From assembly GCF_015218165.1 (NCBI RefSeq), contig NZ_CP048659.1:806001-870000 (forward strand): a DNA stretch of 64,000 bases, written 5' to 3'. The translations under genes were made by a program, and so were the position numbers. Of the stretch, positions 2,803 to 59,813 are shown piece by piece; the first letter of the stretch is position 1; the number at the start of each line of letters is the position of its first letter. Below the pieces are notes generated by a model. It made no database searches. It worked only from the letters and a program-made list of their open reading frames with translations, and was not told the origin of the DNA. This stretch comes from Acinetobacter piscicola (GTDB lineage Bacteria; Pseudomonadota; Gammaproteobacteria; Pseudomonadales; Moraxellaceae).

Positions 2803-3720
2803 TTAGTTTTGATATTTTTGTTTCATCGAACTAATCAATTGATCTTTGTCTTGCCATAACTCATCGACCCAATGTTGAAATTTAGCACGGTATTCTGGAT
2901 CTTCTTCATAGTCACCGCCCAATACCCATGTTGGAATTTCGATTTTACGTAGATTAACTACGATTCGTGGAACTTCACCGAGCCAAAATTCGCCATAGCC
3001 TGGTGCACCATCAGGATAGACAATGGTCATGTCAACCAGGGCATCGATTTGATCACCTAAAATATTCAATGCGAGAGCTAATCCGCCAGCTTTCGGTTTA
3101 AGTAAGTTACGATAGGGGGACTGTTGCTGTTGATGTTTTTCAGGGGTGAAGCGTGTACCTTCAAGATAGTTTAATAACGTAAAGGGTTGGCTCAATAATT
3201 GTTCACATGCTTTACGCGCTTCTGCCATGTCTTGATGTTTTAAGGCTGGATTTTTTTCGATTTGTGCTTTGCTATGACGCTTCATCATTGGAAAGCCTAA
3301 AATTTTAAAGGCTTGTCCCACAAAAGGAATAAAAATAAGTTCCCATTTGGTAAAGAAACGGGTCAGTGGCATACGGGTTAAGCCAAAATATTGATTGACT
3401 GTGGTATCGACCCAACTTTGATGATTACAGGTCATAAGGTAGCGACCTTGCATATTTAAGTCGAGATTTTGATCGACTGAAATCTCCCACTGTGTTTCAG
3501 GTAAGATATGGTCGATGAGCCAATTGTTGACACTTAACCAACTGTTGGTAATTTGAATATTGGTTTCATCAACTTTTTTAGATTGTTTAAAGAGTTTGGT
3601 TAATCCGAGTGCTAATACAGGTGGACCATGAAAAAAAGTACTTCCTGTAATCACAGAACCGACAGTAAAGCCTTTGCTTATTTTTTTTAAAAAAGGGTGT
3701 TTCTGCTGTTGAGATGACAT
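2803..3720 (-). CDS. LPLAT-family acyltransferase (YihG/PlsC-like)
   Basis: This is a member of the lysophospholipid acyltransferase superfamily, which moves an acyl chain from acyl-ACP or acyl-CoA to a lysophospholipid at the inner membrane. The catalytic HX4D motif is present (NHQSWVD, H100 and D105), as is the substrate-binding EGTR motif (187-190). One hydrophobic N-terminal segment (about residues 17-45) could anchor it. At 305 residues it is longer than housekeeping PlsC (about 240) and is closer to the YihG type. The exact acyl acceptor cannot be read from sequence. Confidence 0.82.
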   Translation of the reverse strand: MSSQQQKHPFLKKISKGFTVGSVITGSTFFHGPPVLALGLTKLFKQSKKVDETNIQITNSWLSVNNWLIDHILPETQWEISVDQNLDLNMQGRYLMTCNHQSWVDTTVNQYFGLTRMPLTRFFTKWELIFIPFVGQAFKILGFPMMKRHSKAQIEKNPALKHQDMAEARKACEQLLSQPFTLLNYLEGTRFTPEKHQQQQSPYRNLLKPKAGGLALALNILGDQIDALVDMTIVYPDGAPGYGEFWLGEVPRIVVNLRKIEIPTWVLGGDYEEDPEYRAKFQHWVDELWQDKDQLISSMKQKYQN

Positions 3721-4736: not shown

Positions 4737-6776
4737 ATGTCAAAAGCAAGTCAGTTGAACGACAAGCAACTTGAAGCCATGAAGTATACTCAAGGACCCT
4801 TGTTAGTACTTGCAGGGGCAGGTTCAGGCAAAACTTCAGTGATTACCCGTAAAATTGCCTATTTGGTACAACAGTGTGGCATTCCTGCACATCGTATTAC
4901 GGCAATGACATTTACCAACAAAGCTGCTCGTGAAATGAAAGAGCGTGTGGGTAAACTGCTGGGTAAAGAAGAAGGCAAAGGCCTTTCTGTATCGACGTTC
5001 CATACCTTTGGTTTGAATTTATTGCGTTTAGAGTTGAAGCATACGCCTTTAAAAAATAACTTTTCGATCTTAGATGCTGATGACTGTAAACGTATTTTGA
5101 TGGATTTGATGCATCGCGATAATTTATCAGGTGCAGAAAGTAAAGATTTGATCGCCAAAGCCATGAAGAAAATTTCGGATTGGAAAAACGATCTGATTTT
5201 ACCTGAGCAAGCGCACAATACCTGTGAAACCACAGAAGATGTGCAATTTGCCCATTTATATCAACTTTATGAGCGTAATTTACGTGCTTATAATGCCGTA
5301 GATTTTGATGATTTAATCGTGATGCCAACACGGTTGTTACAAGACAATGCCGAAGTACGTGACCGTTGGCAAAATCGTATTCGTTATTTACTGGTTGATG
5401 AATATCAAGACACCAACACCGCACAGTATATTTTAGTGAAATTACTGGTTGGTGTGATGGGGCAGTTCACTGCCGTAGGTGATGATGACCAATCGATTTA
5501 CGCATGGCGTGGTGCAAAGCCTGAAAATATGGCATTGCTCAAAGAAGACTTTCATAATTTAAAAGTGATTAAGCTTGAACAAAACTACCGTTCAACCAGT
5601 CGTATTTTAAAAGCAGCAAACCATGTGATTGACAACAATCCGCATATTTTTGATAAAAAATTGTGGAGTGATAAAGGGCATGGTGAAGTCATTCGTGTTA
5701 TTACTTGTCGTAATGATGATGATGAATCTGAACGTGTAGTGAAAGATTTACTAACGCATAAATTGATGAATGGGAAAAATTGGAAAGATTATGCGGTGTT
5801 GTATCGCGGAAATTTCCAAGCCCGTGTACTCGAAACCCAACTGCGTCAAATGCAAATTCCTTATAAACTTTCAGGTGGTCAGTCTTTCTTTGCGCGTGCT
5901 GAAATCAAAGACATCATGAGTTATTTAAGGGTAATTATTAACCCTGAAGATGACAGTGCTTTCTTACGCATTATCAATACCCCAAAACGTGCGATTGGTC
6001 CTGTGACATTGGAAAAATTGGGTTTATTTGCTCAAGAAAATCATTTATCACTTTTAGCGGCTGCAAGTGATCAACGTCTTACCATGGTGATGCCGAAAAA
6101 AGCGACGACACAACTGGCTGAGTTTGCAGGTTTTATTGAAGACTTTACCCGTGAACTATTAGATGATGATGAGCCTGTGCCGAAAATTCGTCAGATGATG
6201 AATGAAGCGGGCTATATTGATTATTTACGTGAATCTGCTGCCACACCTGCGCAAGAAAAAACCAAGTTGGATAATGTAGAAATGCTATATAGCAGTATCC
6301 AAAGTTTGATTAATCGTGCCGAAGATGTCGATGAAAAAAACATTGAAAGTGTGATTCGTAAAATGGTGTTGCTTGATATGCTTGAACAGCAACAGGAAGA
6401 AGAAGACACGGATAAAGTGAATCTGTTGACCTTGCATGCATCAAAAGGTTTAGAGTTTCCATTTGTTTATATCATGGGTTTAGAGGAAGAGTTGCTTCCG
6501 CATAAAAACTCGATTGCGGCTGAAACCATCGAAGAAGAACGCCGTTTGATGTATGTGGGGATTACTCGAGCACAACAGGGCTTGACCTTGACCTTGGCGG
6601 AACAGCGCAAAAATGGCGGACAAATGAAGCAAATGACCCCAAGTCGTTTTCTAGATGAGTTGCCACAAGATGAGTTGGATTGGTTAGGACGCAAGAAAAA
6701 GTTCGCTGAAAATGTCGATCCAAAACAGCAAGCACAGCATTATCTACAAAATTTAAAAGCGTTATTAAAACGTTAA
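4737..6776 (+). CDS. rep: ATP-dependent DNA helicase Rep (SF1A)
   Basis: Rep is a 3'-5' single-stranded DNA translocase and helicase of the UvrD/Rep/PcrA group that helps the replisome pass protein-bound DNA. The 679 residues match Rep (about 673 in E. coli) rather than UvrD (about 720). Visible motifs are Q motif/Walker A (AGAGSGKT, 26-33), TFTNKAAREMKERV (motif Ia), VDEYQDTN (Walker B, about 219-226), GDDDQSIYAWRGA (motif III), EQNYRSTSRIL (motif IV), LTLHASKGLEFPFVY (motif V) and EEERRLMYVGITRAQ (motif VI). It stands alone between two terminators. Confidence 0.93.
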   Translation: MSKASQLNDKQLEAMKYTQGPLLVLAGAGSGKTSVITRKIAYLVQQCGIPAHRITAMTFTNKAAREMKERVGKLLGKEEGKGLSVSTFHTFGLNLLRLELKHTPLKNNFSILDADDCKRILMDLMHRDNLSGAESKDLIAKAMKKISDWKNDLILPEQAHNTCETTEDVQFAHLYQLYERNLRAYNAVDFDDLIVMPTRLLQDNAEVRDRWQNRIRYLLVDEYQDTNTAQYILVKLLVGVMGQFTAVGDDDQSIYAWRGAKPENMALLKEDFHNLKVIKLEQNYRSTSRILKAANHVIDNNPHIFDKKLWSDKGHGEVIRVITCRNDDDESERVVKDLLTHKLMNGKNWKDYAVLYRGNFQARVLETQLRQMQIPYKLSGGQSFFARAEIKDIMSYLRVIINPEDDSAFLRIINTPKRAIGPVTLEKLGLFAQENHLSLLAAASDQRLTMVMPKKATTQLAEFAGFIEDFTRELLDDDEPVPKIRQMMNEAGYIDYLRESAATPAQEKTKLDNVEMLYSSIQSLINRAEDVDEKNIESVIRKMVLLDMLEQQQEEEDTDKVNLLTLHASKGLEFPFVYIMGLEEELLPHKNSIAAETIEEERRLMYVGITRAQQGLTLTLAEQRKNGGQMKQMTPSRFLDELPQDELDWLGRKKKFAENVDPKQQAQHYLQNLKALLKR

Positions 6777-44100: not shown

Positions 44101-44125
44101 AGACCCTACTTTTAAGTGGGGTCTT
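44101..44125 (+). terminator. Terminator after acnD
   Basis: The stem AGACCC.ACTT / AAGT.GGGTCT with a TTTTA-type loop is followed by TTTAG. It overlaps a spurious upstream GTG of the next gene. Confidence 0.7.
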
Positions 44126-44142
44126 TAGATTTTGAGAATGTG

Positions 44143-45963
44143 ATGAAATCAGAATTACATGATAAATTATTAACAGCTATAGATGAGTTAAAACAATTAA
44201 CAACAATAATTAGTTTAGAGTCTTTAGTCAATTTTGTAAGTAGGCGACAGTATGAATTTAATCATGGAAAATCAAAGGTATTAAGTTCCCCCTTTCAGCA
44301 AGGGAGTTATCTATTAGGTTTAGCTGCATCACAAGAAGAGCCCAAAAATCCTATTGAATTTAGTGAGGAGTTAGACAAAAAAATTAGTAACTTACTAAAC
44401 AAAATATTCAATTTTTATACTTATAGCTATTTTGATTCAGATAAGAACGATAGAACAGCACAACTCGTAGCAATGTCAGCGTTTATTCATTATTTTTTTA
44501 CAAGTAAGACATTAAGCTCTCATCAAATTAGAGAATGGATTTTATTTTGGTTTGACGAGTATTCTCCATTAGTAAATGATGCTTATGGCTTTACAGTAAA
44601 AGATTTAATTAATTTTGCAAGCTCTTTAGAGAATGAAATCCAAAGAAAAATGGATGATTTACAAGAAGATTATAACTACTTAGAAGAAAGTAGAAAAAAA
44701 TTTTTAGAAAAGCTCCAAGTGAATATTAAAAACTATAATACTGAAATTAATAGTATTGAAAATGACGAAGAGTTAAAGAGAAGAGGGCAAAGACTTTTTG
44801 AAAATACTCTTGAATTATTTTCAATTGAGTCATCTAAAATTTCAGAAAAAATAGGAGAAGAAAAATATAATAATATATTGTCTATTTTTGGTCTGAAAAG
44901 AGGTGATGCAGAAGAAATAACTTATATTACTGATAAAAATCCAATTGCATTTAAGGCTTTATTTTTTAAGGAAAATAAAATTTACTATGTACTGAATAAT
45001 TCATTTTTTATTTCTATAATTAATTTTTTGGAAAATTATTTATTTAAAGAAGCCAAAAATGCTCAGAAAATTATTCAAAATCGAGATAAAAAGTTAGAGA
45101 CAAAGACTACCGAATTATTTAAAAGATTATGCAGTGGTAATGCTGATTTTTATGAAAGTGCTTTTGAAAATGCAAATTCAAGGAATGAGCATGATTTAGT
45201 CATTTATGATAATGGTGTGTTGTTAATTGTTGAGGCTAAAGCATCACCTCCCAAAGAACCAATGCGTGATACTGAAAAGGCTTTTACTAGAATCAGAGAC
45301 CATTTTAAAAGTAACGCTGGGTTACAGAAAGCATTTGATCAAGCAAATAATTTAAAAAAACGAGTGATTGAGGATGAAAAATTAACTTTATATACAAAAA
45401 AAGGGAGACTTTTAGTAGAAATTCCTTTAGCAGAAATTAAAGTTATTCATACTATTTGTGTGACAAGGGACGATTTTGGAGCTCTTGGTTGTAATTTGAA
45501 TTACTTGTTGGATAAGAATGAAGATGAAATATATCCATGGGTTATTGATATTGCAAATTTGGATAGCATTGTTCAGGCATGGGATCATTTAGAGCTAAAT
45601 TATTCTGATTTTTATGAGTTTTTATCACAAAGAAATCAGTTGCATAATAAAGTACTAAGTATGGATGAGTTGGAATATGTGGGAGCTTATTTAAAATATC
45701 AAGGGGGCTTAAAAGGGTTTATTTCAGCTAAAGCAGACTATATACCTCTGTCAATGGAAGATGCTGATATTTTTGATGAAATTTATTTTAAAACATTAGT
45801 AGATGAACAGTATGAGTTAAAGAAGGTTCCATTATCTCTACATCGTATACGACGAGAGGATATTTTTGGCACAGAAAAGAATAAAAGTTCTAAACAAAAA
45901 ACAAGTAGAAAACCAAAATCTAAAATCCAAAGAAAATCGAGAAAATTGAATAGAAATAAATAG
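44143..45963 (+). CDS. Unknown protein with PD-(D/E)XK nuclease-like motif and basic tail
   Basis: The family is not recognised. From ATG 44143 it has 606 residues. The first ~170 are helical; a coiled coil follows (about 170-220, EIQRKMDDLQEDYNYLEESR). A PD-(D/E)XK-type core is visible at HD351...E364-A-K366 (EHDLVIYDNGVLLIVEAKA). The C-terminal 30 residues are Lys/Arg/Ser-rich, a likely nucleic-acid-binding tail. The gene is distinctly more AT-rich than the flanking acnD and may be acquired. It is followed after 10 bp by a small repeat protein gene. A nuclease, possibly defence-related, is inferred. Confidence 0.6.
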   Translation: MKSELHDKLLTAIDELKQLTTIISLESLVNFVSRRQYEFNHGKSKVLSSPFQQGSYLLGLAASQEEPKNPIEFSEELDKKISNLLNKIFNFYTYSYFDSDKNDRTAQLVAMSAFIHYFFTSKTLSSHQIREWILFWFDEYSPLVNDAYGFTVKDLINFASSLENEIQRKMDDLQEDYNYLEESRKKFLEKLQVNIKNYNTEINSIENDEELKRRGQRLFENTLELFSIESSKISEKIGEEKYNNILSIFGLKRGDAEEITYITDKNPIAFKALFFKENKIYYVLNNSFFISIINFLENYLFKEAKNAQKIIQNRDKKLETKTTELFKRLCSGNADFYESAFENANSRNEHDLVIYDNGVLLIVEAKASPPKEPMRDTEKAFTRIRDHFKSNAGLQKAFDQANNLKKRVIEDEKLTLYTKKGRLLVEIPLAEIKVIHTICVTRDDFGALGCNLNYLLDKNEDEIYPWVIDIANLDSIVQAWDHLELNYSDFYEFLSQRNQLHNKVLSMDELEYVGAYLKYQGGLKGFISAKADYIPLSMEDADIFDEIYFKTLVDEQYELKKVPLSLHRIRREDIFGTEKNKSSKQKTSRKPKSKIQRKSRKLNRNK

Positions 45964-47894: not shown

Positions 47895-48344
47895 ATGAAA
47901 ACATTCGACTTAGTGGTACATACACCGAAAAATTTACAAGAAGGTGGCGATGAGTTTTTAGAAAAATTCACAGCCATTCAGGCTTTGATCAAATTTGACA
48001 GTATTGCTTGGCGGCAACTTTTGGTAAGGCAACTACAATTTAATAGTGAAAATGCGAGTTTTACGATTACAGATTTGCAAAGCCAACAAAGCCTTCGATT
48101 CACTTTAAACGCGTTTTCAAAATTAGATGATTTAGAGTTTAAAATTGAAAGTGATGTTGCCATTATCGTGCCACAAAAAGATGTATTTGGACTGATTACC
48201 CGTAAAACCAAAGATTATATTTTTTTCAAAAAATTAGACTTTGCTACGGCAAGGCAGTATCTACTGTGTTTTTTAAATGCTGAATTACAACAGCTAGAGC
48301 AATTTTATAAGGACAGCCAGTCTAAATTGGCGCTTCATCTATAA
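47895..48344 (+). CDS. Hypothetical protein
   Basis: No family recognised. The 149 residues (MKTFDLVVHTPKNLQEGG...) have no signal peptide and no membrane segment, with a helical C-terminus rich in Leu/Gln. The ATG at 47895 with AGGAAAA upstream is preferred over a TTG 21 bases earlier. It is the last gene before the repeat region. Confidence 0.55.
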   Translation: MKTFDLVVHTPKNLQEGGDEFLEKFTAIQALIKFDSIAWRQLLVRQLQFNSENASFTITDLQSQQSLRFTLNAFSKLDDLEFKIESDVAIIVPQKDVFGLITRKTKDYIFFKKLDFATARQYLLCFLNAELQQLEQFYKDSQSKLALHL

Positions 48345-48464
48345 ATTTTGAAGAAAGAGAACTGTAGAAGAGAGATAAAAATTCTGCTGAATTGAGATTT
48401 TACGCTGTAAAAAATGAGTAATTTTCGATTAAAAGGAAAAAAATTGGAATTAATCGAGTTTTTA

Positions 48465-48738
48465 TGAAAAATATTTTTAAATTTATGCAAAATTGCCTGA
48501 TCTTAGGAAATTAATCCCGTAGTCATTTGGCTACTATAAATCTCAAGGGTGTGATGGGATCGAAAAGAGTAGCCTGCTACCAGTTGCGTACAACGTGAGT
48601 GTAGTACAAATCCAAAAGATCTCGATTCGGCTTAGGACGCTATAGACCAAAAGTTTATAGGCAATAGGATTAGAACTTACCAAGTTTTAATAGTTGAAGT
48701 AAACCATACAACGTTTTCCCAAATACCCTAAAAAATTT
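48465..48738 (+). repeat. 274-bp direct repeat, copy 1: candidate structured ncRNA
   Basis: Starts TGAAAAATATTTTT and ends ACCCTAAAAAATTT. It is about 97% identical to copy 2 at 49099-49371 (about seven differences). No reading frame is open through it. Local hairpins are visible, for example GTAGTC-ATTT-GGCTAC at 48523-48538, CTATA/TATAG near 48645, and AACTT/AAGTT near 48690. ATCCC pairs with GGGAT across the first hairpin. Strand is assumed plus from these stems; transcription is unproven. Confidence 0.7.
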
Positions 48739-49098
48739 TTAGCATAACAATATATAATCAAAAAAGTCCCTCTCTAGATCAGTCAGATCTTCGCTTGAAA
48801 ACACAATATCTATATTTTCACCCTCTGCATGATTCATGGTGATTTATACTTTTTTAAATTGAGCTTTTCGCAGATTTTAAAGTATCACTCGGCATTATAT
48901 TTTGAATGCAGCGCTCACAGCGCATTCAGTGGTTATTTGAATCTCACATTAACACACTATTTAAAATCCAGTCTTTTCCCGTATAAATACAAAATGAGGT
49001 TTAAGCAAAGAAAAATATCTCATTTTTAACCATAAATAACGTAAAAAAATGCACAAATTTTGCTTGAATGGGAAAAATTATTAATATTCAGAAAATCG
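48739..49098 (+). other. Spacer between the two long repeats
   Basis: 360 bp, AT-rich. The only reading frame (48829-49029, 66 codons) has no ribosome site or recognisable family and unusual composition, so it is not called a gene. Nothing else is recognised here. Confidence 0.5.
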
Positions 49099-49371
49099 TG
49101 AAAAATATTTTCAAATTTATGCAAAATTGCCTGATCTTAGGAAATTAATCCCGTAGCCATTGGGCTACTATAAATCTCAAGGGTGTGATGGGATCGAAAA
49201 GAGTAGCCTGCTACCAGTTGCGTATAACGTGAGTGTAGTACAAATCCAAAAGATCTCGATTCGGCTTAGGACGCTATAGACCAAAAGTTTATAGGCAATA
49301 GGATTAGAACTTACCAAGTTTTAATAGTTGAAGTAAACCATACGATGTTTTCCCAATACCCTAAAAAATTT
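49099..49371 (+). repeat. 273-bp direct repeat, copy 2: candidate structured ncRNA
   Basis: Same unit as copy 1, 634 bp downstream. The first hairpin reads GTAGCC-ATTG-GGCTAC: the T-to-C change converts a U-G pair to C-G, so pairing is kept and the other change falls in the loop. One base is deleted near the 3' end (AATACCC for AAATACCC). It ends about 210 bp before the SWIM gene that opens the five-gene operon. Confidence 0.7.
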
Positions 49372-49581
49372 AAACAATCAAATAACAATAAACTTAAATC
49401 CAAAACCACAAAAGTTGTATGAGCATTCTAATTTTTCTAAAATTTCACCGATATTTTGACTTAAACATTAACGACAAATTTTGTCGTTTAGCTGATTTTT
49501 TCCGTTGAATTATTAAAATGAAAAATATACATTGATTGAGCAAATGAAATTTAAAATGAAAAAATAACATAAGGACTTTTT

Positions 49582-50928
49582 ATGTTGCTGACGATTCAGC
49601 CAGACCAAATACAACAAATTATTCCTGATGCAAATTCAGAGAAAGCGGCTAAAAAATTGGCTAAAGTCAATGACTGGAATAATAAAGGTGCTTCTACAGA
49701 TCAATGGGTTTGGGCAGAAATCAAAGGGAGTGCGATTTATCAAAGTGCTATTTTTTTACCCCAACTAAAATGTGAATGTAGTTGCCCAAGTTTTAAACGT
49801 CCTTGTAAACATGCGCTTGCTTTACTGATGGTGTATCAAGAACATCCCGCCGAGTTTCAAATTCAGGAAGATGAAACACAATTTCCTGAACGGGTCACAA
49901 AATGGCGTGACAAACTCACGCAAAGTACCGAGAAAAAAGCCGAAAAAGCCAATAAACCTGTTGATGAAGCAGCACGTGCTAAGCGTCAAGAATCACGTGA
50001 TAAAAAAATTGACCAAGCCATTGATGCTTTGCAACTGTGGCTGAAAGATGTAGTCAATTTAGGCTTAGGTGAAGTGCGTTCACAAAATGGACGACAATTT
50101 TTTCATGAAATTACCAGTCGTTTGGTAGATGGTCAGGCTGCGGGAATCAATATTTGGATTGATGAATTTTCAAGTGCGCTATATCAGCCAAATTGGCAAC
50201 AGCACAGTGCTTTTTGGCTTGCGCGTTTATATCTGATTGCTGAACTATGGCAAAAAAGAGCACAACTTTCTCTAGATTTACAGCAAGAATTACGTCAGTT
50301 GATGGGCATTAACCTTGCTAGTGATTTTTGGTCAAGCCAAAGTACAGAAGAGCTACAGTTAAGTGTGCTTGCTTCTCGTACACAAGCATTACAACAGTCC
50401 AAAGGGAATTTTCGTCGTCAATGGTTATGGGACGAGAAAACATGTACAGATTATTTAATTTTAGATTTTGATATTGCACCGCATACACGTTATGGCTTAA
50501 CCCTACCAAGTCAGCATCATTTTAAACTCAAAGCACAGCGTTATCCTGGGGTAGAACAACAACGTTTGAAACTTGCAGAGCAAGTCACACTCAACGATAT
50601 TGATGCCATTAAAATTGAAAATAAACCGCCGCAAGGTTTTGTGTGTTTTGAAGATGCTTTAGCCAAACATGCAGAAAAGCTCAGTCATAATCCGATGCAT
50701 CTGACCAGTTTTTGGTGGATGAATCCTGTGCGTTTAAGTCAAAAAGATGAGCGTTATTATTTGATTGATTCGACACATCATATGATGCCGATTTCACTCA
50801 GTACTGATCAATTTACTTCGTTATGGATGATGGTGAGTAATCAACCTTTTTATGCAGGTTTAGAGTGGAATGGTTTAGAACTGCAACTGATTAGTCTTTG
50901 GCAAGGAGCGCATTACCAATGTCTATAA
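49582..50928 (+). CDS. SWIM zinc-finger protein, first gene of a MoxR-VWA operon
   Basis: The 448 residues carry a SWIM zinc finger, CxCxnCxH, at C66, C68, C75 and H77 (CSCPSFKRPCKHALAL). A Lys/Ala/Glu-rich linker (about 108-150) and a C-terminal domain of about 300 residues of unknown fold follow. SWIM domains bind DNA or protein. The gene opens a five-gene plus-strand operon whose next members are DUF5691-like, MoxR-type, DUF5682-like and VWA genes. The next gene overlaps it by 10 bases. Confidence 0.85.
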   Translation: MLLTIQPDQIQQIIPDANSEKAAKKLAKVNDWNNKGASTDQWVWAEIKGSAIYQSAIFLPQLKCECSCPSFKRPCKHALALLMVYQEHPAEFQIQEDETQFPERVTKWRDKLTQSTEKKAEKANKPVDEAARAKRQESRDKKIDQAIDALQLWLKDVVNLGLGEVRSQNGRQFFHEITSRLVDGQAAGINIWIDEFSSALYQPNWQQHSAFWLARLYLIAELWQKRAQLSLDLQQELRQLMGINLASDFWSSQSTEELQLSVLASRTQALQQSKGNFRRQWLWDEKTCTDYLILDFDIAPHTRYGLTLPSQHHFKLKAQRYPGVEQQRLKLAEQVTLNDIDAIKIENKPPQGFVCFEDALAKHAEKLSHNPMHLTSFWWMNPVRLSQKDERYYLIDSTHHMMPISLSTDQFTSLWMMVSNQPFYAGLEWNGLELQLISLWQGAHYQCL

Positions 50929-52514
50929 GCTCACCTTTAGAACAATTTACCAAGCAACTTGAACTTAAACTCACCCTTGGGCAGCATTATCAACAACCGA
51001 TTCATGTACCTGCGCCCATTTCTGAGTTTGTCAGTGATGAACAGGATGTATTGGATTTAAATCTGCAATGGACACTTTTTCAAGTGTCTGCACAACAAGC
51101 TTATCCTTGTTCAGCGCAACAACTTGCTCGCTTAGCTGACGATGAAACGCCATTTACACCTAGTAAACGGGGTATGAATAGCCTAATTAAAAGTATTGTT
51201 CAACTTAATCAATATAATTTTCAGTATGATAAGCCTGTTTGGATGAATTATCTCTTGCATCTCATTCGTTTGCAGAAACAGGCGATTGCGCCACATTTGG
51301 TTTTAGATGTACTGAATGTTGCCAATAATGATGTGCTATTAGCGGCAACATTGCCTGAACGAAGCTATAAATTGCAGGATTTGCGTCAGGATAATCGTTT
51401 AAAAGTGGCTAAAATTTTACATCAGACATTGATTTTGCAACAACCCATTGATGAAGAAGATGCAAAATTTGCCAGTTTAAGTAAAGGTCCTGCTGAGCGT
51501 TTACTTCAAAACCTTGCACTTGAACATGCCGATTTTATTCATCAAAATTTTGAAGCCTTATGGAAACGTATTGATAAAGAACAGCGTAAAGACTGGATTG
51601 AAAATACGCCATTTTCATTTTTTGCCCCGCATGTTGCATATTTAACTGCATTGCATCAAAAGAAACCTGAACAAGCTTTAGGGCAAGGTTTACACTATTT
51701 GTTTTTGCATGATTCTGAACATACTTATACGCAAAAAATGCTGCAATTACTGGAAAATGTCATTGAATTTGATGCTAAAAATCGCTGTATGATCGTGCGA
51801 ATGAGCATTGAATTGGATGAACAATTACAACAACTCAATATCATTGATTACACTGCAAATGGCAATGAACGTAAGGTCATTAAAGAGCTGGATATTGAAG
51901 AAAATTTAATAAAATTCTCACAATCGAGTAAAGCTGAAGACTATTTATATTTTATTTTAAAAGCGATGCCTTTGTCCTATTGGCAACAGATTTTCCCAAC
52001 CTGGGAGAGTTTACTGAAGCTGAAATATAAAAATCAGCGAAATCACATTTTAGATGCATTTTGTTTTCGTTGTTTTCATGAGCAACGTGCCGATTTAGCA
52101 ACGTGGCTCTATGAAAATGATCAAGAAGAACTCGAAAGCATCCGTTTTGCTTCCAATATGCAATATCTGTATCCGCTACTGAGCATCGAAAAACGTGATC
52201 ATTTGATGGTGCAGCATTTACGCCAAGCCCGTAAACGTCATGAACCTGATTTTTTATTGGATGTTTGGAAACGCTTACCATTGCCTGCGTCAGAGATAGG
52301 TGTTTTATCCAAAGAACTGACTGAGCGTTTATTGGCGGAAATCTATCTACAGGAAGAGCAGGAATATGCCTATTTATTGCATCCATTGTATGAATGGCTT
52401 GTGGTCTATGGCTATCCAACTGAAATTAGCCCATTAAAAGATTTAGATTCTAGTCGTTTTGATATTTTAAATAGCATTGCCAAACAAAAAGTGGCGATCC
52501 TCAATAAACAATAA
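50919..52514 (+). CDS. DUF5691-like helical protein of the MoxR-VWA operon
   Basis: From ATG 50919 (GGAG 14-17 bases upstream; overlaps the SWIM gene by 10 bp) it has 531 residues, mostly helical and rich in Leu/Gln. Distinct blocks are KRGMNSLIKSIVQLN, NDVLLAATLPERSYKLQDLRQDNR, and LSKGPAERLLQNLALEHADF. The name DUF5691 is given from gene order and composition, not from a database search. Probably an adaptor or scaffold for the MoxR/VWA pair. Confidence 0.65.
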   Translation: MSISSPLEQFTKQLELKLTLGQHYQQPIHVPAPISEFVSDEQDVLDLNLQWTLFQVSAQQAYPCSAQQLARLADDETPFTPSKRGMNSLIKSIVQLNQYNFQYDKPVWMNYLLHLIRLQKQAIAPHLVLDVLNVANNDVLLAATLPERSYKLQDLRQDNRLKVAKILHQTLILQQPIDEEDAKFASLSKGPAERLLQNLALEHADFIHQNFEALWKRIDKEQRKDWIENTPFSFFAPHVAYLTALHQKKPEQALGQGLHYLFLHDSEHTYTQKMLQLLENVIEFDAKNRCMIVRMSIELDEQLQQLNIIDYTANGNERKVIKELDIEENLIKFSQSSKAEDYLYFILKAMPLSYWQQIFPTWESLLKLKYKNQRNHILDAFCFRCFHEQRADLATWLYENDQEELESIRFASNMQYLYPLLSIEKRDHLMVQHLRQARKRHEPDFLLDVWKRLPLPASEIGVLSKELTERLLAEIYLQEEQEYAYLLHPLYEWLVVYGYPTEISPLKDLDSSRFDILNSIAKQKVAILNKQ

Positions 52515-52550
52515 ACCTCACTTTCATTTTAGATAAAAAAGGATACTGAC

Positions 52551-53630
52551 ATGAGTCAAGTTTTACGCGCCAAAGCAGAACAACAATATGCCCATGAACT
52601 CACAGCCTTAAAAGAACACGATAAAAAACAACGTCCTGCACAATGGGAGTTATCACCAAATGCTGTCGTCGATTATTTAATGGGGACGACGCTACCTGAT
52701 GGGACTGAAATTTCAGCAAAATATATTGGTAATCGTCGTTTGATGGAAATTGCGGTTGCAACTTTAGCCACTGACCGTGCTTTATTGTTACTTGGTGTAC
52801 CAGGAACAGCAAAATCTTGGGTCTCTGAGCATTTAGCTGCAGCCATTAGTGGTAACAGTACTTTGCTCATTCAAGGGACAGCAGGCACCAGTGAAGATAC
52901 TTTACGTTATAGCTGGAACTATGCACAGTTACTTGCCAAAGGTCCTACAGAAGACGCCTTGGTACAAAGCCCAATGTTACGTGCGATGCGTACAGGAAAA
53001 ATTGCTCGTATTGAAGAGTTGACCCGTATTCCTGCTGATGTACAGGATACTTTGATTACATTGTTATCTGAAAAAAATCTACCTGTACCTGAGTTAGGCA
53101 TTGAATATCAAGCGGTACAAGGTTTTAGTGTGATTGCGACTGCCAACAACCGTGATAAAGGCGTCAATGAACTTTCATCGGCACTTAAACGTCGTTTTAA
53201 TACCGTGATTTTACCACCACCTGCCACTATTGCTGAAGAAATTGAAATTGTGCAACAACGTGTTGCCTCGCTTGGTCGTAGCTTATCTTTACCTGAAATT
53301 CAACCACTCGATCAACACATTAAAACCCTTGTGACCATTTTCCGTGAATTACGTGAAGGTAAAACAGTAGATGGTAAGCAAAAACTGAAAAGCACTACAG
53401 GGACATTATCCACAGCCGAAGCGATTTCAGTGATGAGCCATAGTTGGGCAATGTCAGGGCATTTTGGTGATGGCAGTTTAAATGCCCATGATTTAGTTGC
53501 AGGTTTACAAGGTGCGATTGTCAAAGACCCTGTGCAAGATGTGGTGCCTTGGAAAGAATATGTCGAAACCGTCATTAAACAACGTGAAGGTTGGAATGAG
53601 ATTTACCAAGCTTGCCGAGATTTAGAATAA
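52551..53630 (+). CDS. MoxR-type AAA+ ATPase
   Basis: A 359-residue AAA+ ATPase of the MoxR branch, which usually acts with a VWA protein as a chaperone-like machine. Walker A is GVPGTAKS (82-89), Walker B IARIEE (151-156), sensor 1 VIATANNRD (about 195-203), and the arginine finger region SSALKRRFNTVILPPP is present. The Walker A Lys is retained. It is the third gene of the operon, 36 bp after its neighbour. Confidence 0.9.
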   Translation: MSQVLRAKAEQQYAHELTALKEHDKKQRPAQWELSPNAVVDYLMGTTLPDGTEISAKYIGNRRLMEIAVATLATDRALLLLGVPGTAKSWVSEHLAAAISGNSTLLIQGTAGTSEDTLRYSWNYAQLLAKGPTEDALVQSPMLRAMRTGKIARIEELTRIPADVQDTLITLLSEKNLPVPELGIEYQAVQGFSVIATANNRDKGVNELSSALKRRFNTVILPPPATIAEEIEIVQQRVASLGRSLSLPEIQPLDQHIKTLVTIFRELREGKTVDGKQKLKSTTGTLSTAEAISVMSHSWAMSGHFGDGSLNAHDLVAGLQGAIVKDPVQDVVPWKEYVETVIKQREGWNEIYQACRDLE

Positions 53631-53651
53631 TTACAGTCAAAGGATTTGCCC

Positions 53652-56126
53652 ATGCATTATATTTTAGGGGTACGTCATCATGGTCCTGGCTCTGCTCGAA
53701 GTGTTTTAAATGCACTAGAGCAGTTGCAACCTGACTGTATTCTCATTGAAGGACCACCTGATGCGAATGATCGTATTGCACAGCTCAGCCATGCTGAAAT
53801 TGAGCCACCGATTGCATTACTCATCAACACGCCTGTACAAAAAGATGAACGACCACGTGCGATATTTTATCCTTTTGCAGAATTTTCACCCGAATGGCAA
53901 GCATTACAATTTGCTTTAAAACATCAAATCCATACTGAATTTATGGATTTAGCCTGTCAGCATCGTTTTGCACTGGAAAAACAGGCTGAAGAGGTACGAC
54001 AAGCGCTTGAAGCTGAACAACAGACAGATTCAGAAGAAGAAAAATCTGAAGATGAGCATGTTGATGAAACGCTTGCTGATGCTGCTTCTGATGAATCAGC
54101 TGCTAACAATGAAAGCATTGATGAAGATGAAGAAGATGCGTTTGAAATCTCAGATGAAGAACGCAAATTTTTGCAATATCGTCATGATCCCATCGCACTT
54201 TTAGCCCATCAAGCAGGTTATCAGGACAGCGAACGTTTTTGGGAACACTTGGTTGAACAGCAACCCCATGCGGGTGATATGTTTCAGTCGATCAATGAAG
54301 CAATGGCTGAAATTCGCGATTATTTAAACAGTTTAAATCCGAATACTGAACTTGATGATGATCAGTTGATAGAACAATACCGCGAAGCGTCTATGCGAAA
54401 AATCATTCGCCAAGCACAGAAGCAGGGCTTTGAACGTATCGTGGTGATTTGTGGTGCATGGCATGCACCTGTTTTAGTGGATTTAAAAACAAGCTTAAAA
54501 GATGATAATCAACTGTTAAAAGGTTTGCCAAAAACCAAGATTGAATCCGCTTGGATTGCATGGACACATGGACGTTTACATCGTGATAGTGGTTATGGTG
54601 CAGGTATTCAAGCGGTGGGTTGGTATGCACATTTATGGAAGCATTATCAGCAAGCTCTTGCAGGCAAAGTCGATGCTGAAAAAATTAGTATTGATTGGCT
54701 CAGTCAGTTTGCCAATGCTTTGCGTGAGGCAGGACATGATGCCTCAAGTGCGCAAATTATTGATGCAACGCAACTAATTCAGTCTTTATTACAATTGCGT
54801 GAGCGCCGTATTCCTGATCTTGATGATTTAACAGAAGCGATTCGCAGTGTGCTGCATCATGGTTATGATTTGCCTGAGCCGATCATGAATCAGATGCTAT
54901 TGGCAGAAAAACTGGGGCATTTACCTGAAGATTATTCAGAATTACCAATACAACAAGACTTTTTAAAACAATGTAAGTCGTTGCGTTTAAAGCTTGAAGC
55001 GGTACATCGTGGGGTTGAACTGGACTTGCGTCAGCCTTTTGATTTAAGTAAAAGTCAGTTTTTTCATCGGGTAAATTTGCTGGGTTTGGCATGGGCAGAA
55101 TTACAAAATTACTCATCAGGTCGAGGAAATTATAAAGAAAACTGGCAATTGTCATGGCAACCTGAAAGCAGTTTATACCTCAATGAAATGTCACTTTGGG
55201 GCTATACCATTGCTGATGCAGCCGCAAGTTATATTCAAGATAAAATTGAGCATAGTGATGATCTATCAACTGTTGCTAAATATATTGAGCAAATATTGCT
55301 GGCAGGTTTAGACCGTAGTTTGCCTGTGGCTTTACAGCGTTTACAATCTTTATCAACCTTGCACCAAGATCCTGATGTATTGCTTGCGACTTTAACACCT
55401 TTGGTCACAGCTTTGCGTTATGGTAGCGTCCGTCAATTTTCTGAGCATGAATTATTTCAAATTATTCAACAGCTCAGCATACGTTTAATGTTGTCATTAC
55501 CACAGTATTGTCAGTCCATTAATGATGATATGGCAAAACAAACTGCACAGCAGTTAAATAGCCTTTATTTGTTGTTACAGCGTTTAGACAATGCAACGCT
55601 CAATCAATATTGGCAAGACTTAATACTCAAATTATTGCAACAAACCTATATGAATGGTTATTTGCATGGCTCTGTTACCAAGTTAGCAAAACAGCAGCAA
55701 TTGCTTGATTTAGATGAAATAGAACATTATTTATCACAAGCTTTATCGGTTGGGCAAACCGTTGATTATAGTGCAGGTTGGTTCGAAGGCTTTATCAGTG
55801 ATCAAGCGTTATTATTGTTACATGAAGATAATTTATGGAACTTGGTGAATGCATGGCTAGGCGATTTACCCGAAGAACAATTTATCAATATTCTGCCTAT
55901 TTTACGTCGTTCAACCAGTGATTTTAGTCCAAGTGAATCTGCGAAAATTGCAGAAAAAGCAGCATCAGGGGTGACAGTACATATTGCGCAACTGCCTCAT
56001 CAATTTAATCTTGAGCGTGGTTATAACACTTTATTGAATTTAAGAAATTTACTTCATCCTCAACTTGCATGTGTAGATGGCGCTGAAAAAGCTGATTTAA
56101 AAGAGGGTTCTGATGTCACAAATTAA
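53652..56126 (+). CDS. DUF5682-like protein (TraB/EreA/ChaN-like)
   Basis: From ATG 53652 (AGGA upstream) it has 824 residues. The start, GVRHHGPGSARSV (H9, H10) and CILIEGPPDAND (E33), followed by YPFAEFSPEWQAL, FMDLACQHR and, near residue 270, GAWHAPVL, recalls the erythromycin-esterase/TraB/ChaN superfamily, with conserved His/Glu that could be catalytic. A very acidic, low-complexity insertion lies at about 117-170 (Glu/Asp/Ser/Ala). The rest, about 550 residues, is helical. Function unknown; possible enzyme of the operon. Confidence 0.75.
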   Translation: MHYILGVRHHGPGSARSVLNALEQLQPDCILIEGPPDANDRIAQLSHAEIEPPIALLINTPVQKDERPRAIFYPFAEFSPEWQALQFALKHQIHTEFMDLACQHRFALEKQAEEVRQALEAEQQTDSEEEKSEDEHVDETLADAASDESAANNESIDEDEEDAFEISDEERKFLQYRHDPIALLAHQAGYQDSERFWEHLVEQQPHAGDMFQSINEAMAEIRDYLNSLNPNTELDDDQLIEQYREASMRKIIRQAQKQGFERIVVICGAWHAPVLVDLKTSLKDDNQLLKGLPKTKIESAWIAWTHGRLHRDSGYGAGIQAVGWYAHLWKHYQQALAGKVDAEKISIDWLSQFANALREAGHDASSAQIIDATQLIQSLLQLRERRIPDLDDLTEAIRSVLHHGYDLPEPIMNQMLLAEKLGHLPEDYSELPIQQDFLKQCKSLRLKLEAVHRGVELDLRQPFDLSKSQFFHRVNLLGLAWAELQNYSSGRGNYKENWQLSWQPESSLYLNEMSLWGYTIADAAASYIQDKIEHSDDLSTVAKYIEQILLAGLDRSLPVALQRLQSLSTLHQDPDVLLATLTPLVTALRYGSVRQFSEHELFQIIQQLSIRLMLSLPQYCQSINDDMAKQTAQQLNSLYLLLQRLDNATLNQYWQDLILKLLQQTYMNGYLHGSVTKLAKQQQLLDLDEIEHYLSQALSVGQTVDYSAGWFEGFISDQALLLLHEDNLWNLVNAWLGDLPEEQFINILPILRRSTSDFSPSESAKIAEKAASGVTVHIAQLPHQFNLERGYNTLLNLRNLLHPQLACVDGAEKADLKEGSDVTN

Positions 56127-57267
56127 TCAAAATACCCAAGAACAAGAACGACGTTGGCGCTTAATTTTAGGTCAACGTCCTGAGCAGTCATCACCTGAGT
56201 ATTGGTCGAGTGATGATGAAAATATGTTCCAGTGTTTAGATGTGTTATATAACACGCAACAGCAACAACGTGGTGGTTTAGGGCGTTCTAGTCCACGTAT
56301 TGCCAAATGGCTGGGCGATATTCGTCAGTATTTCCCAAGTTCTGTGGTGCAAATCATTCAAAAAGATGCGCTTGAACGTTTGAACTTGCAACAAATGTTG
56401 CTAGAGCCTGAATTATTAGAAAATATCGAAGTTGATATTCATTTGGTTTCGACTTTGATTGGCTTAAATCACTTGATGCCTGATCAAACCAAAGAAACTG
56501 CCCGTATTGTGGTACGTAAATTAGTTGAGGAAATTGAGCGACGTTTAAAACAAAGTTTAGAGCAAGCCATTCAAGGTTCAGTCAACCGTTCAGCCCATAC
56601 GCGCCGTCCAAAACGTATTCAAGATATTAATTGGCACCGCACCATTCAAGCCAACTTAAAACATTGGCAAGAAGAATACAAAACTATTATTCCTGAACAA
56701 CTGCATGGACATCCACGCCAGCGCAGTTCCTTAAAAGATATTGTACTGTGTGTGGATCAGAGCGGTTCGATGGCACCCTCGGTGGTGTATTCGAGTATTT
56801 TTGCTGCGATGATGGCAAGTATTCGGGCTGTGACCACACAAATGGTGGTGTTTGATACGCAAATTGTTGATTTAACGCCATTGCTTGAAGACCCTGTAGA
56901 TGTGTTATTTGGAACGCAACTCGGTGGTGGTACGGACATTGCTAAAGCGATTAAATATTGTCGTAGTAAAATCACCCGCCCTGAAGAAACAATTTTTGTG
57001 TTGGTCACAGATTTATGTGAAGGGGGCAGTGAGCAACAGCTCTTTAAACAAGTGGCTGAGATGCTCAATAGTGGTGTACAAATTATTACTTTATTGGCAC
57101 TGTCAGATGAGGGCACACCTTATTATGACCGTGAAAATGCACAAAAGTTTGCGGCATTAGGCATTCCCACTTTTGCGTGTACCCCCGATCAATTTCCTGA
57201 ATTGATGGCAAAAGCCATTGAAAAGCAGGATATTAATGCTTGGTATGCAGCACAGCAACAAAAATAG
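56113..57267 (+). CDS. VWA-domain protein, last gene of the MoxR operon
   Basis: 384 residues: a helical N-terminal part (about 1-200) and a C-terminal von Willebrand A domain. The MIDAS motif is intact: DQSGSM (215-220), T274 (GGGTD) and D300 (VTD), so a metal-dependent ligand site is likely. It overlaps the DUF5682-like gene by 14 bp and has its own GAGG ribosome site. MoxR and VWA partners typically work together, here within one operon. Confidence 0.88.
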   Translation: MSQINQNTQEQERRWRLILGQRPEQSSPEYWSSDDENMFQCLDVLYNTQQQQRGGLGRSSPRIAKWLGDIRQYFPSSVVQIIQKDALERLNLQQMLLEPELLENIEVDIHLVSTLIGLNHLMPDQTKETARIVVRKLVEEIERRLKQSLEQAIQGSVNRSAHTRRPKRIQDINWHRTIQANLKHWQEEYKTIIPEQLHGHPRQRSSLKDIVLCVDQSGSMAPSVVYSSIFAAMMASIRAVTTQMVVFDTQIVDLTPLLEDPVDVLFGTQLGGGTDIAKAIKYCRSKITRPEETIFVLVTDLCEGGSEQQLFKQVAEMLNSGVQIITLLALSDEGTPYYDRENAQKFAALGIPTFACTPDQFPELMAKAIEKQDINAWYAAQQQK

Positions 57268-58164: not shown

Positions 58165-58830
58165 ATGCCTTTAGATCAAACCTTTGTATATATGCCTCCC
58201 CAAGACCCCCTTGCTATCCTCTATGAAGATGCAGACTTGGTCGTCATTGATAAGCCTGCAGAATTATTGTCCGTTCCGGGGCGTTTACCTGAACATCATG
58301 ATAGTGCTTATTTTCGTGTCTTAGAGCAATTTCCCAATGCTAAAATCACCCACCGTTTAGATATGGCAACCTCTGGAATTTTAATGTTTGCGAAACATAG
58401 AGATGCGGAAGTCGCGATCAGTAAAATGTTTCAGGCGCGTACTGTGAAGAAAAATTATATTGCTTTGGTGCAGGGAAAATTAGACGGTGAGGGCAGTGTA
58501 GATGTTCCACTCATCACAGATTGGGAAAATCGTCCTCGTCAAATGGTGCATTTTGAGCTAGGTAAATCAGCCCAAACACTGTATCAAGCTTTAAATTATG
58601 ATGAGCAGCAAGATATTACACGGGTTTTACTCACACCCATTACAGGACGTTCACATCAATTAAGAGTGCATATGATGCATATTGGACATCCGATTACAGG
58701 CGATAAAATTTATCATCCTGATCCAAAGCAAAGCCCTTTAAAACGTATGGCTTTACATGCAAGTTATTTAGAGTTTATACAACCTTTAAATGGTGAAAAA
58801 GTTATCATTCAGGGAGATGTACCTTTTTAA
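58165..58830 (+). CDS. rluA: RluA-family pseudouridine synthase
   Basis: It isomerises uridine to pseudouridine in 23S rRNA (U746) and tRNA (U32) in the RluA branch. The catalytic loop HRLDMATSG (D66) is intact. YIALVQGKL, the GRSHQLRVHMMHIGHPITGDKIY block and the ALHASYLEF motif follow. The 221 residues and lack of an S4 domain match RluA rather than RluC/D. Confidence 0.9.
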   Translation: MPLDQTFVYMPPQDPLAILYEDADLVVIDKPAELLSVPGRLPEHHDSAYFRVLEQFPNAKITHRLDMATSGILMFAKHRDAEVAISKMFQARTVKKNYIALVQGKLDGEGSVDVPLITDWENRPRQMVHFELGKSAQTLYQALNYDEQQDITRVLLTPITGRSHQLRVHMMHIGHPITGDKIYHPDPKQSPLKRMALHASYLEFIQPLNGEKVIIQGDVPF

Positions 58831-59411: not shown

Positions 59412-59813
59412 ATGACACGCGATTTTGAACAATTCCCTGATGATGATAACGGCAATTTATTGTGGCAAATGCAAGAAGATGGTGATGATTTAGATGAAGT
59501 ACATGAAATTGAATTTTCAATGTATTTTAAAACCCAAGCACTTGCTGAAAAATGTGCATTACATTTATTACTAGAAGAACAAAAAGTCTCAATGTATCTT
59601 GATGAAGAAATTGAGCCCAATGAATGGGTGATTACTGTTTTTGTCAATTTACTTCCTGAATATACCGATATTGTTGATCTTGAAGAATGGTTCAACAAAA
59701 TTGCGACAGAATTTAACGGTGAATATGATGGTTGGGGATGCACCACTTATGTCTTTGATGATGCATTTGATGAAGATGACTTTACTGAAGAAGAATTAGG
59801 TGAATTAAAATAA
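59412..59813 (+). CDS. RraB-family ribonuclease E inhibitor-like protein
   Basis: The 133 acidic residues match RraB, which binds RNase E and modulates mRNA decay. The C-terminal NGEYDGWGCTTYVFDDAF corresponds to the conserved EYDGWGTYFED end of E. coli RraB, and the acidic tail FDEDDFTEEELGEL is similar. AAGGA ribosome site. Whether it acts on RNase E in this organism is inferred. Confidence 0.75.
   Translation: MTRDFEQFPDDDNGNLLWQMQEDGDDLDEVHEIEFSMYFKTQALAEKCALHLLLEEQKVSMYLDEEIEPNEWVITVFVNLLPEYTDIVDLEEWFNKIATEFNGEYDGWGCTTYVFDDAFDEDDFTEEELGELK

Follow-up and report, generated by a model that had tools for sequence, protein, structure and literature searches.

The stretch of Acinetobacter piscicola DNA analysed here (64,000 nt, the window) carries two copies of a putative RNA unit on its + strand, copy 1 at 48465..48737 and copy 2 at 49099..49371, both of the class called type A below. 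They form a direct repeat and both are matched by a covariance model of the unit (at 48544-48733 with 207.6 bits in copy 1 and at 49178-49366 with 203.9 bits in copy 2); copy 1 also belongs to the family found with nhmmer. A repeat search of the window places the two 273-nt copies in one family with 96% identity and a start-to-start distance of 634, and blastn finds these two matches only in the whole assembly. The spacer between them (48738..49098, +) differs from the units and holds no ORF of at least 80 aa; the near-identical direct repeats of about 273 bp with an unshared spacer, described in an earlier note on this DNA, are thus indeed present. Its count of about seven differences, two of them in a single hairpin, also stands: seven columns of alignment A1 (which uses 48498-48739 of copy 1 and 49132-49372 of copy 2) distinguish the window copies, one of these being a gap, and columns 26 (T/C) and 31 (T/G) fall inside that hairpin. 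In a tree built from one short gene the window copies cluster with each other (support 0.82) although a tandem arrangement is also found in the relatives L035 and L037, which suggests homogenisation between the two.

A gene stop at 48344 precedes copy 1 and is followed by an AT-rich region (48345..48475, +) that is regarded, from the upstream spacing and from motifs, as a candidate promoter region; by eye the region upstream of copy 2 (48979..49109, +) is like that of copy 2 in L037. Weakly conserved GGAAAAAATTC-like motifs occur in the AT-rich sequence before the copies (41 copies looked at), and promoter-like sites in the window region number 2 against 6.3 in shuffles, i.e. fewer. Terminator-like sites in the window region number 0 (shuffles 0.4) and no terminator with a U-run was seen by eye after 38 copies. 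There is no gene within 375 nt downstream of copy 1. Further along lie two syntenic landmarks, recognized from their ORFs and from an annotated record: a gene for an RluA-like pseudouridine synthase (58165..58830, +) and an RraB-like (RNase E inhibitor) gene (59412..59813, +). The gene island between the RNA and rluA (49582-57267) encodes a SWIM zinc finger, an unknown protein, an AAA ATPase and DUF5682, its last gene presumably specifying a vWA-like protein, and L035 and L036 share its first genes (clusters 54-57). On the other side of the repeat a 615-aa protein without a Pfam match (44116-45963) adjoins the upstream landmark, a gene that we take to be aconitase-like.

Predicted fold and covariation

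Each copy fits a predicted fold in which a closing stem, P1/P2, holds two three-way-junction arms. In copy 1 (all on the + strand) the closing stems span 48547..48728, with P1 at 48547-48549/48726-48728 and P2 at 48556-48558/48718-48720, and show compensatory changes; arm I (48561..48629) has a P3/P4 stem with hairpins P5/P6 and P7 (CAAAA-type loop) and arm II (48630..48700) has a P8/P9 stem with hairpins P10 (CAAAA-type loop) and P11/P12, the P8/P9 internal loop AGG/UGA being strongly conserved. Copy 2 has the same helices (49181..49361, +; P1 49181-49183/49359-49361, P2 49190-49192/49352-49354), with arm I at 49195-49263 and arm II at 49264-49334 (+). The 5' domain of copy 1 (48498..48546, +) consists, in A1, of a conserved UUAGGAAAUUAAUCCCG, a hypervariable linker and then CUA..UAUAAAUCUCAA. 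An extra hairpin-like insert (GGAAC...GTTCC type) is found beside P1 in L105, L107, L110, L243, L244 and L261, in both classes.

Across Acinetobacter, numerous compensatory changes preserve this fold. A1 is a MAFFT alignment, not fitted to structure, of 95 rows (91 distinct), these being what is left of 98 copies when L033 (leaving 97), one duplicate (96) and the truncated L114 (95) are taken out. Under a 59-pair structure 95.9% of its cells are paired, and 32 of the 59 pairs have changes on both sides compared with a shuffled figure of 10.9 (none of 500 shuffles attains 32); pairing drops to 33-47% when the structure is slid, although this control leans towards the structure because the structure was derived from A1 itself. 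RNAalifold on A1 gives a smaller model of 30 pairs, 17 of them with double changes. Alignments A3 and A4 were fitted to the covariance model. A4 (both classes, 120 matches, 115 distinct) has double changes in 38 of 48 pairs (478 cells), and the divergent set alone has them in 37 of 48 pairs in a fitted alignment of 27 rows, six of which lie off the regulator gene described below (L105, L110, L112, L248, the first copy of L250, and L241 in the type-A locus). Covariation in homologues, the lack of which was to count against an RNA, is thus seen in both A1 and A4. When column pairs able to pair in more than 85% (A1) or more than 75% (A4) of weighted sequences are ranked by covariation, the best 12 in A4 are all in the model, and seven of the best 10 in A1 are in it (with the P2 register of the 59-pair structure) and three outside. 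Pseudoknots were rejected, as the out-of-model pairs in these rankings form, by eye, no run of neighbouring columns.

Assignment to the + strand comes from single-sequence folding (z of −2.56 against shuffles on the + strand and 0.08 on the − strand) together with the many G-C to G-U changes seen on the + strand, since the covariation terms of RNAalifold are close between strands (57.2 and 56.2); the RNAalifold total is better on the + strand (−88.7 vs −75.4). The hairpin that had first drawn attention as a preserved stem (GTAGTC-ATTT-GGCTAC, 48519-48534, +) did not survive: it lies inside the hypervariable linker, is not conserved, and pairs in 35.2% of cells over 91 sequences, below the shuffled mean, so that as a covarying stem it was rejected as lineage-specific. 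The complementarity ATCCC/GGGAT, also pointed out at the start, is upheld as far as pairing goes (97.6% of cells can pair) but shows hardly any variation, and double changes are more numerous between its GGG and a 3' CCC (helix 3 / P2).

Distribution and genomic setting

A blastn search with the unit, as the earlier note had advised for Acinetobacter genomes, found it in 80 of 144 genomes, made up of 80 of the 89 Acinetobacter genomes (the window's own included) and 0 of the 55 others; two of the 80 matches are weak (27 bases in G014, and 113 bases at a contig end in G083). Covariance model R1, used to extend this distribution, confirms G014 and adds five genomes of the genus (G020, G045, G050, G026 and, at 31.7 bits, G030), and in all at least 85 of the 89 Acinetobacter genomes carry the RNA. 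The whole-genome model search covered genomes other than G031 and G032, and G076 and G082 gave no model match in the family search. With the stricter filters that were applied to searches over 40 genomes, there were no model matches outside the genus in 144 further genomes of the order, and the family search with the model matched 38 of 149 genomes, all of them Acinetobacter (one of 16 genera). An exact 21-mer of the unit occurs in 102 stretches of named GTDB genomes, of which the 80 listed are all Acinetobacter, A. baylyi, A. pittii and A. nosocomialis being among the carriers listed; named records of A. baumannii and A. baylyi carry the RNA, the A. baylyi type-strain record (L176) having a copy of type A. 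Three chromosome-sized A. baumannii records (NZ_CP077849, NZ_CP104448 and NZ_CP064203) are filed as plasmids. Two records filed as 'Acinetobacter phage MD-2021a' (CAKLQF020000013 and CAKLQH020000009) match the unit, the match in CAKLQH020000009 having ordinary bacterial genes around it. As the exact 21-mer was found in 0 viral contigs and the 'phage' record that was opened carries ordinary bacterial genes, a phage element was rejected.

In a locus set of 83 sequences (the window, two named records and 80 fetched regions) nhmmer finds 98 copies of a 262-nt unit, window copy 1 included. The type-A locus is mostly syntenic and inherited in place: the RluA-like (cluster 0) and RraB-like (cluster 1) genes each follow the RNA, with its orientation, in 68 of the 83 sequences, and the aconitase-like gene lies upstream in 47. 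Displaced copies occur in L105, L110 and L112, away from both the main locus and the Lrp/AsnC gene; a second copy in L112 (G052, 6275-6467), off the main locus, is AT-rich (25% GC) and possibly decaying. The genes between the RNA and rluA, and those directly upstream, vary by species while the RNA stays; type A occupies a hot spot of gene insertion ahead of the rluA/rraB-like genes and has no fixed gene as its neighbour. Upstream genes from several unrelated families often have their stop codon 117-150 nt ahead of the unit. The next downstream gene, nameable for 97 of the 98 copies, is on the + strand in 94 and on the opposite strand in three (the RNA being kept with such a gene in L037 and L082), in a region that is co-directional as a whole (further genes + in 723 of 881 vs 155 of 165 immediate neighbours). 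These downstream genes, 40 to several hundred nt away, belong to many clusters, which we presume to include SWIM, DUF1003-like, DUF2867, GGDEF-like and RluA-like proteins, the names coming in part from one annotated record. At eight A. baumannii-type loci the gene starts 40-41 nt past the RNA. By eye, stems over the ribosome-binding site (RBS) are neither prominent nor enriched for type A.

The second class, type B, is more divergent and is defined partly by its genomic place. Twenty-one loci were examined, namely all 19 family-search regions with matches below 160 bits plus L111 and L113; at 19 of these the RNA lies directly upstream of, and on the same strand as, a gene for an Lrp/AsnC-family regulator (Pfam PF01037 in the one protein checked), and the other two (L241 and L248) lie in the type-A locus. 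The start codon follows the end of the model after 49-77 nt at 17 of the 19, after 111 nt in L249 and after 213 nt in L247. An RBS-covering stem of at least 7 bp is found in 13 of the 19 type-B leaders compared with 37 of 325 other genes, the controls being only genes with an SD-like motif and having mechanically set start codons; the 13 are not independent, because the loci are related and their stems fall by eye in roughly five sequence groups. The stem is shorter than 7 bp in L113, L234, L237, L245, L247 and L249. The predicted RBS-stem architecture is kept while the sequence changes between groups. Folding z-scores for type B are only −2.54 to 0.44, and no aptamer-to-platform switch pairing was found. 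One locus, L247 (G333, 4992-6278), has three tandem type-B copies before the Lrp/AsnC gene. The regulator gene is present in 58 of 59 genomes and the RNA at 15 of the 50 Lrp-gene loci searched with the model (13/30 and 2/20); eight of the 58 Lrp-gene matches lay outside this search, and G001, G015 and G020 among them carry the RNA. In the model search no RNA was detected at L257 and L258, where the regulator is 99% identical, nor at the regulator gene of the window's own genome (L281). From the 15 of 50 loci and the two 99%-identical regulators without detected RNA, the type-B leader appears to be optional and dispensable for the regulator gene.

Interpretation and alternative readings

The sequences point to a genuine family of structured RNAs in the genus Acinetobacter, undescribed in the databases and literature searched and present here in two copies; the original view of the repeat as a structured RNA in two copies, neither a MITE nor a known Rfam family, is supported by genus-wide conservation, synteny, + strand covariation and the lack of an Rfam match. 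On balance we favour the reading that the repeat is a tandem gene pair for an undescribed structured RNA of about 240-270 nt, with type A as its stand-alone form and type B as a leader, both read on the + strand. Type A would be a free RNA of that length with its own candidate promoter in the AT-rich region before the unit, as the flanking genes on either side vary freely around an RNA that persists and the downstream genes belong to many clusters at varied distances, three of them on the opposite strand, with RBS stems not prominent. Type B is probably a translational leader of the regulator gene, given that the RNA lies close before the start codon and is often followed by a hairpin over the RBS. 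The folded domain may bind a partner, either a metabolite or a protein, and so open or close the RBS hairpin, and type A would most likely bind the same partner in trans. In this fuller form, a riboswitch-like class with a leader gating Lrp/AsnC translation and with free-standing, sometimes tandem, genes whose RNA senses or titrates the same partner in trans, the model is put forward tentatively.

That the unit is instead a small gene, or the remnant of a decayed one, is scarcely credible. Open runs of 50 or more codons do occur in some frames (in 51 of 95 copies for one minus-strand frame), but every one of the six frames contains a stop in each of the 95 copies, where the longest open run per copy is 30-74 aa (median 57), 340 of 357 gap runs relative to window copy 1 are no multiple of three, and the RNA covariation is strong. 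The stops and the out-of-frame gaps indicate that the unit is non-coding, in agreement with the first impression that neither strand is coding, and together with the covariation they led us to reject a coding or decayed gene; in the window's own ORF list neither unit is covered by an ORF of at least 80 aa. It is also very unlikely that the unit is a DNA element (a MITE, recombination site or cassette boundary) belonging to the gene-insertion hot spot and that its fold matters as DNA. Such an element would fit the frequent change of flanking genes on both sides, the RNA-gene-RNA layout at several loci and the recurring 117-150 nt gap to the upstream gene, but there are 1-3 blastn matches per genome, mostly in one syntenic place, the compensatory changes pass through G-U on one strand, the 21-mer is absent from viral contigs, and homologous recombination at a conserved anchor can explain the hot spot. 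Nor do the two copies have any terminal inverted repeats in common, as had been said of them from the outset, a weak AT-rich arm pair (80%) lying close to the ends of copy 1 and absent from copy 2; a MITE was rejected on this ground and because the copies are not dispersed.

Among readings that accept an RNA, one would make both classes cis-regulatory (riboswitch-like) leaders, with type A controlling whichever co-directional gene follows. We consider this rather unlikely: the next gene is co-directional in 94 of 97 copies, the 40-41 nt spacing recurs at the eight A. baumannii-type loci and type B is close to lrp, but the genes after type A are of many clusters and lie anywhere from 40 to several hundred nt away, the gene next to three copies is on the opposite strand and some copies have no gene nearby, RBS stems are not enriched by eye, and the excess of + strand neighbours is to be read against a region that is co-directional anyway. 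A trans-acting antisense sRNA of the usual Hfq-dependent type is unlikely. Its stand-alone position and size would suit, and sRNAs are abundant in A. baumannii according to the accessible portion of PMC5320573, but there is no U-run terminator in the window or, by eye, after the 38 copies, conservation is spread over a large compact fold and not over one seed, and the RNA was not met in the main-text passages searched of two papers, one on Hi-GRIL-seq and one on RIL-seq (PMC11472050 and PMC12802169). For the favoured reading, of a tandem gene pair with a leader form elsewhere, the type-B link to a single regulator gene offers a route to the partner of the RNA, and laboratory Acinetobacter strains make the RNA amenable to testing. 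Rfam lacks this large, strongly covarying RNA of a well-studied genus, and so, to the extent that its place can be mapped, do two published sRNA tables in the accessible portions of their papers (PMC5320573 and PMC3976366).

Comparison with known RNAs and repeats

The Rfam scan that had been recommended gave no family at gathering threshold in the window, and a permissive scan of the region gave six matches (E 2.5 to 7.1), all far below the cut-off; type-B units at five loci had no Rfam match. 6S RNA is of similar length and is widespread in the genus. It was rejected as an identity for the unit, as had been anticipated, since the genome has its own RF00013 copy elsewhere (C1:2782227-2782409) and the unit has no RF00013 match. 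A CsrB-like reading was rejected because by eye only one AGGA is strongly conserved. The C4 antisense RNA family (RF01695, 87 positions) matches L033 at 3623-3708 and L074 at 2926-3012, on the opposite strand and outside the unit (4.3 kb away from it in L033), with no match in seven further loci; it was rejected as a separate 87-position family to which the unit shows no match.

In A. baumannii NZ_CP077849 the RNA lies on the + strand about 101 kb after dnaA, in the same orientation. The 6S and SRP RNAs of this record are oriented opposite to those of AB5075, which means that the chromosome is rearranged and that projection of the RNA onto AB5075 is uncertain. Near 100 kb the accessible portion of the AB5075 table (Weiss et al. 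2016, PMC5320573) lists a single + strand RNA, ABUWs001 (92978-93245), which roughly fits the projected copy in position, strand and length; it was set aside as the AB5075 copy because it is filed there under the C4-like Group 1. With the uncertain placing in mind, no entry in that portion of the table matches the projected copy, except perhaps ABUWs001, and if the RNA really is missing there, its expression in exponential LB may be weak. The 31 AbsR candidates reported by Sharma et al. 2014 (PMC3976366), as given in the accessible portion, all start at or beyond 178 kb of ATCC 17978, and the AbsR11, AbsR25 and AbsR28 probes have no match in the 83 locus sequences. The accessible portion of the 104-motif paper (PMC2864571) names Acinetobacter only in a reference. 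A dataset of 255 sRNAs is reported in the accessible portion of PMC5538643, and the RNA may be listed as an unnamed transcript in its supplement.

Set beside known systems, the unit has a branched fold, in which it differs from 6S RNA (RF00013). The C4 antisense RNA and the Group 1 sRNAs of A. baumannii, as far as the accessible portion of PMC5320573 describes them, are likewise repeated structured RNAs in Acinetobacter, and C4 lies near the type-A locus in L033. From the accessible portions of PMC3976366 and PMC5320573, the AbsR and Art sRNAs of A. baumannii are alike in being intergenic and of similar size, but the AbsR candidates all start from 178 kb on in ATCC 17978 whereas the unit should lie near 100 kb. 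MITEs such as MITEAba12 (PMC6382973, accessible portion) are also short non-coding repeats, but the RNA unit has no shared terminal inverted repeats and is not dispersed. Type B may be likened to riboswitches and structured mRNA leaders, with a conserved multi-helix domain shortly before one gene family and, at many loci, a predicted hairpin covering the RBS; type A differs in having no fixed target gene, and the unit as a whole matches no Rfam riboswitch.
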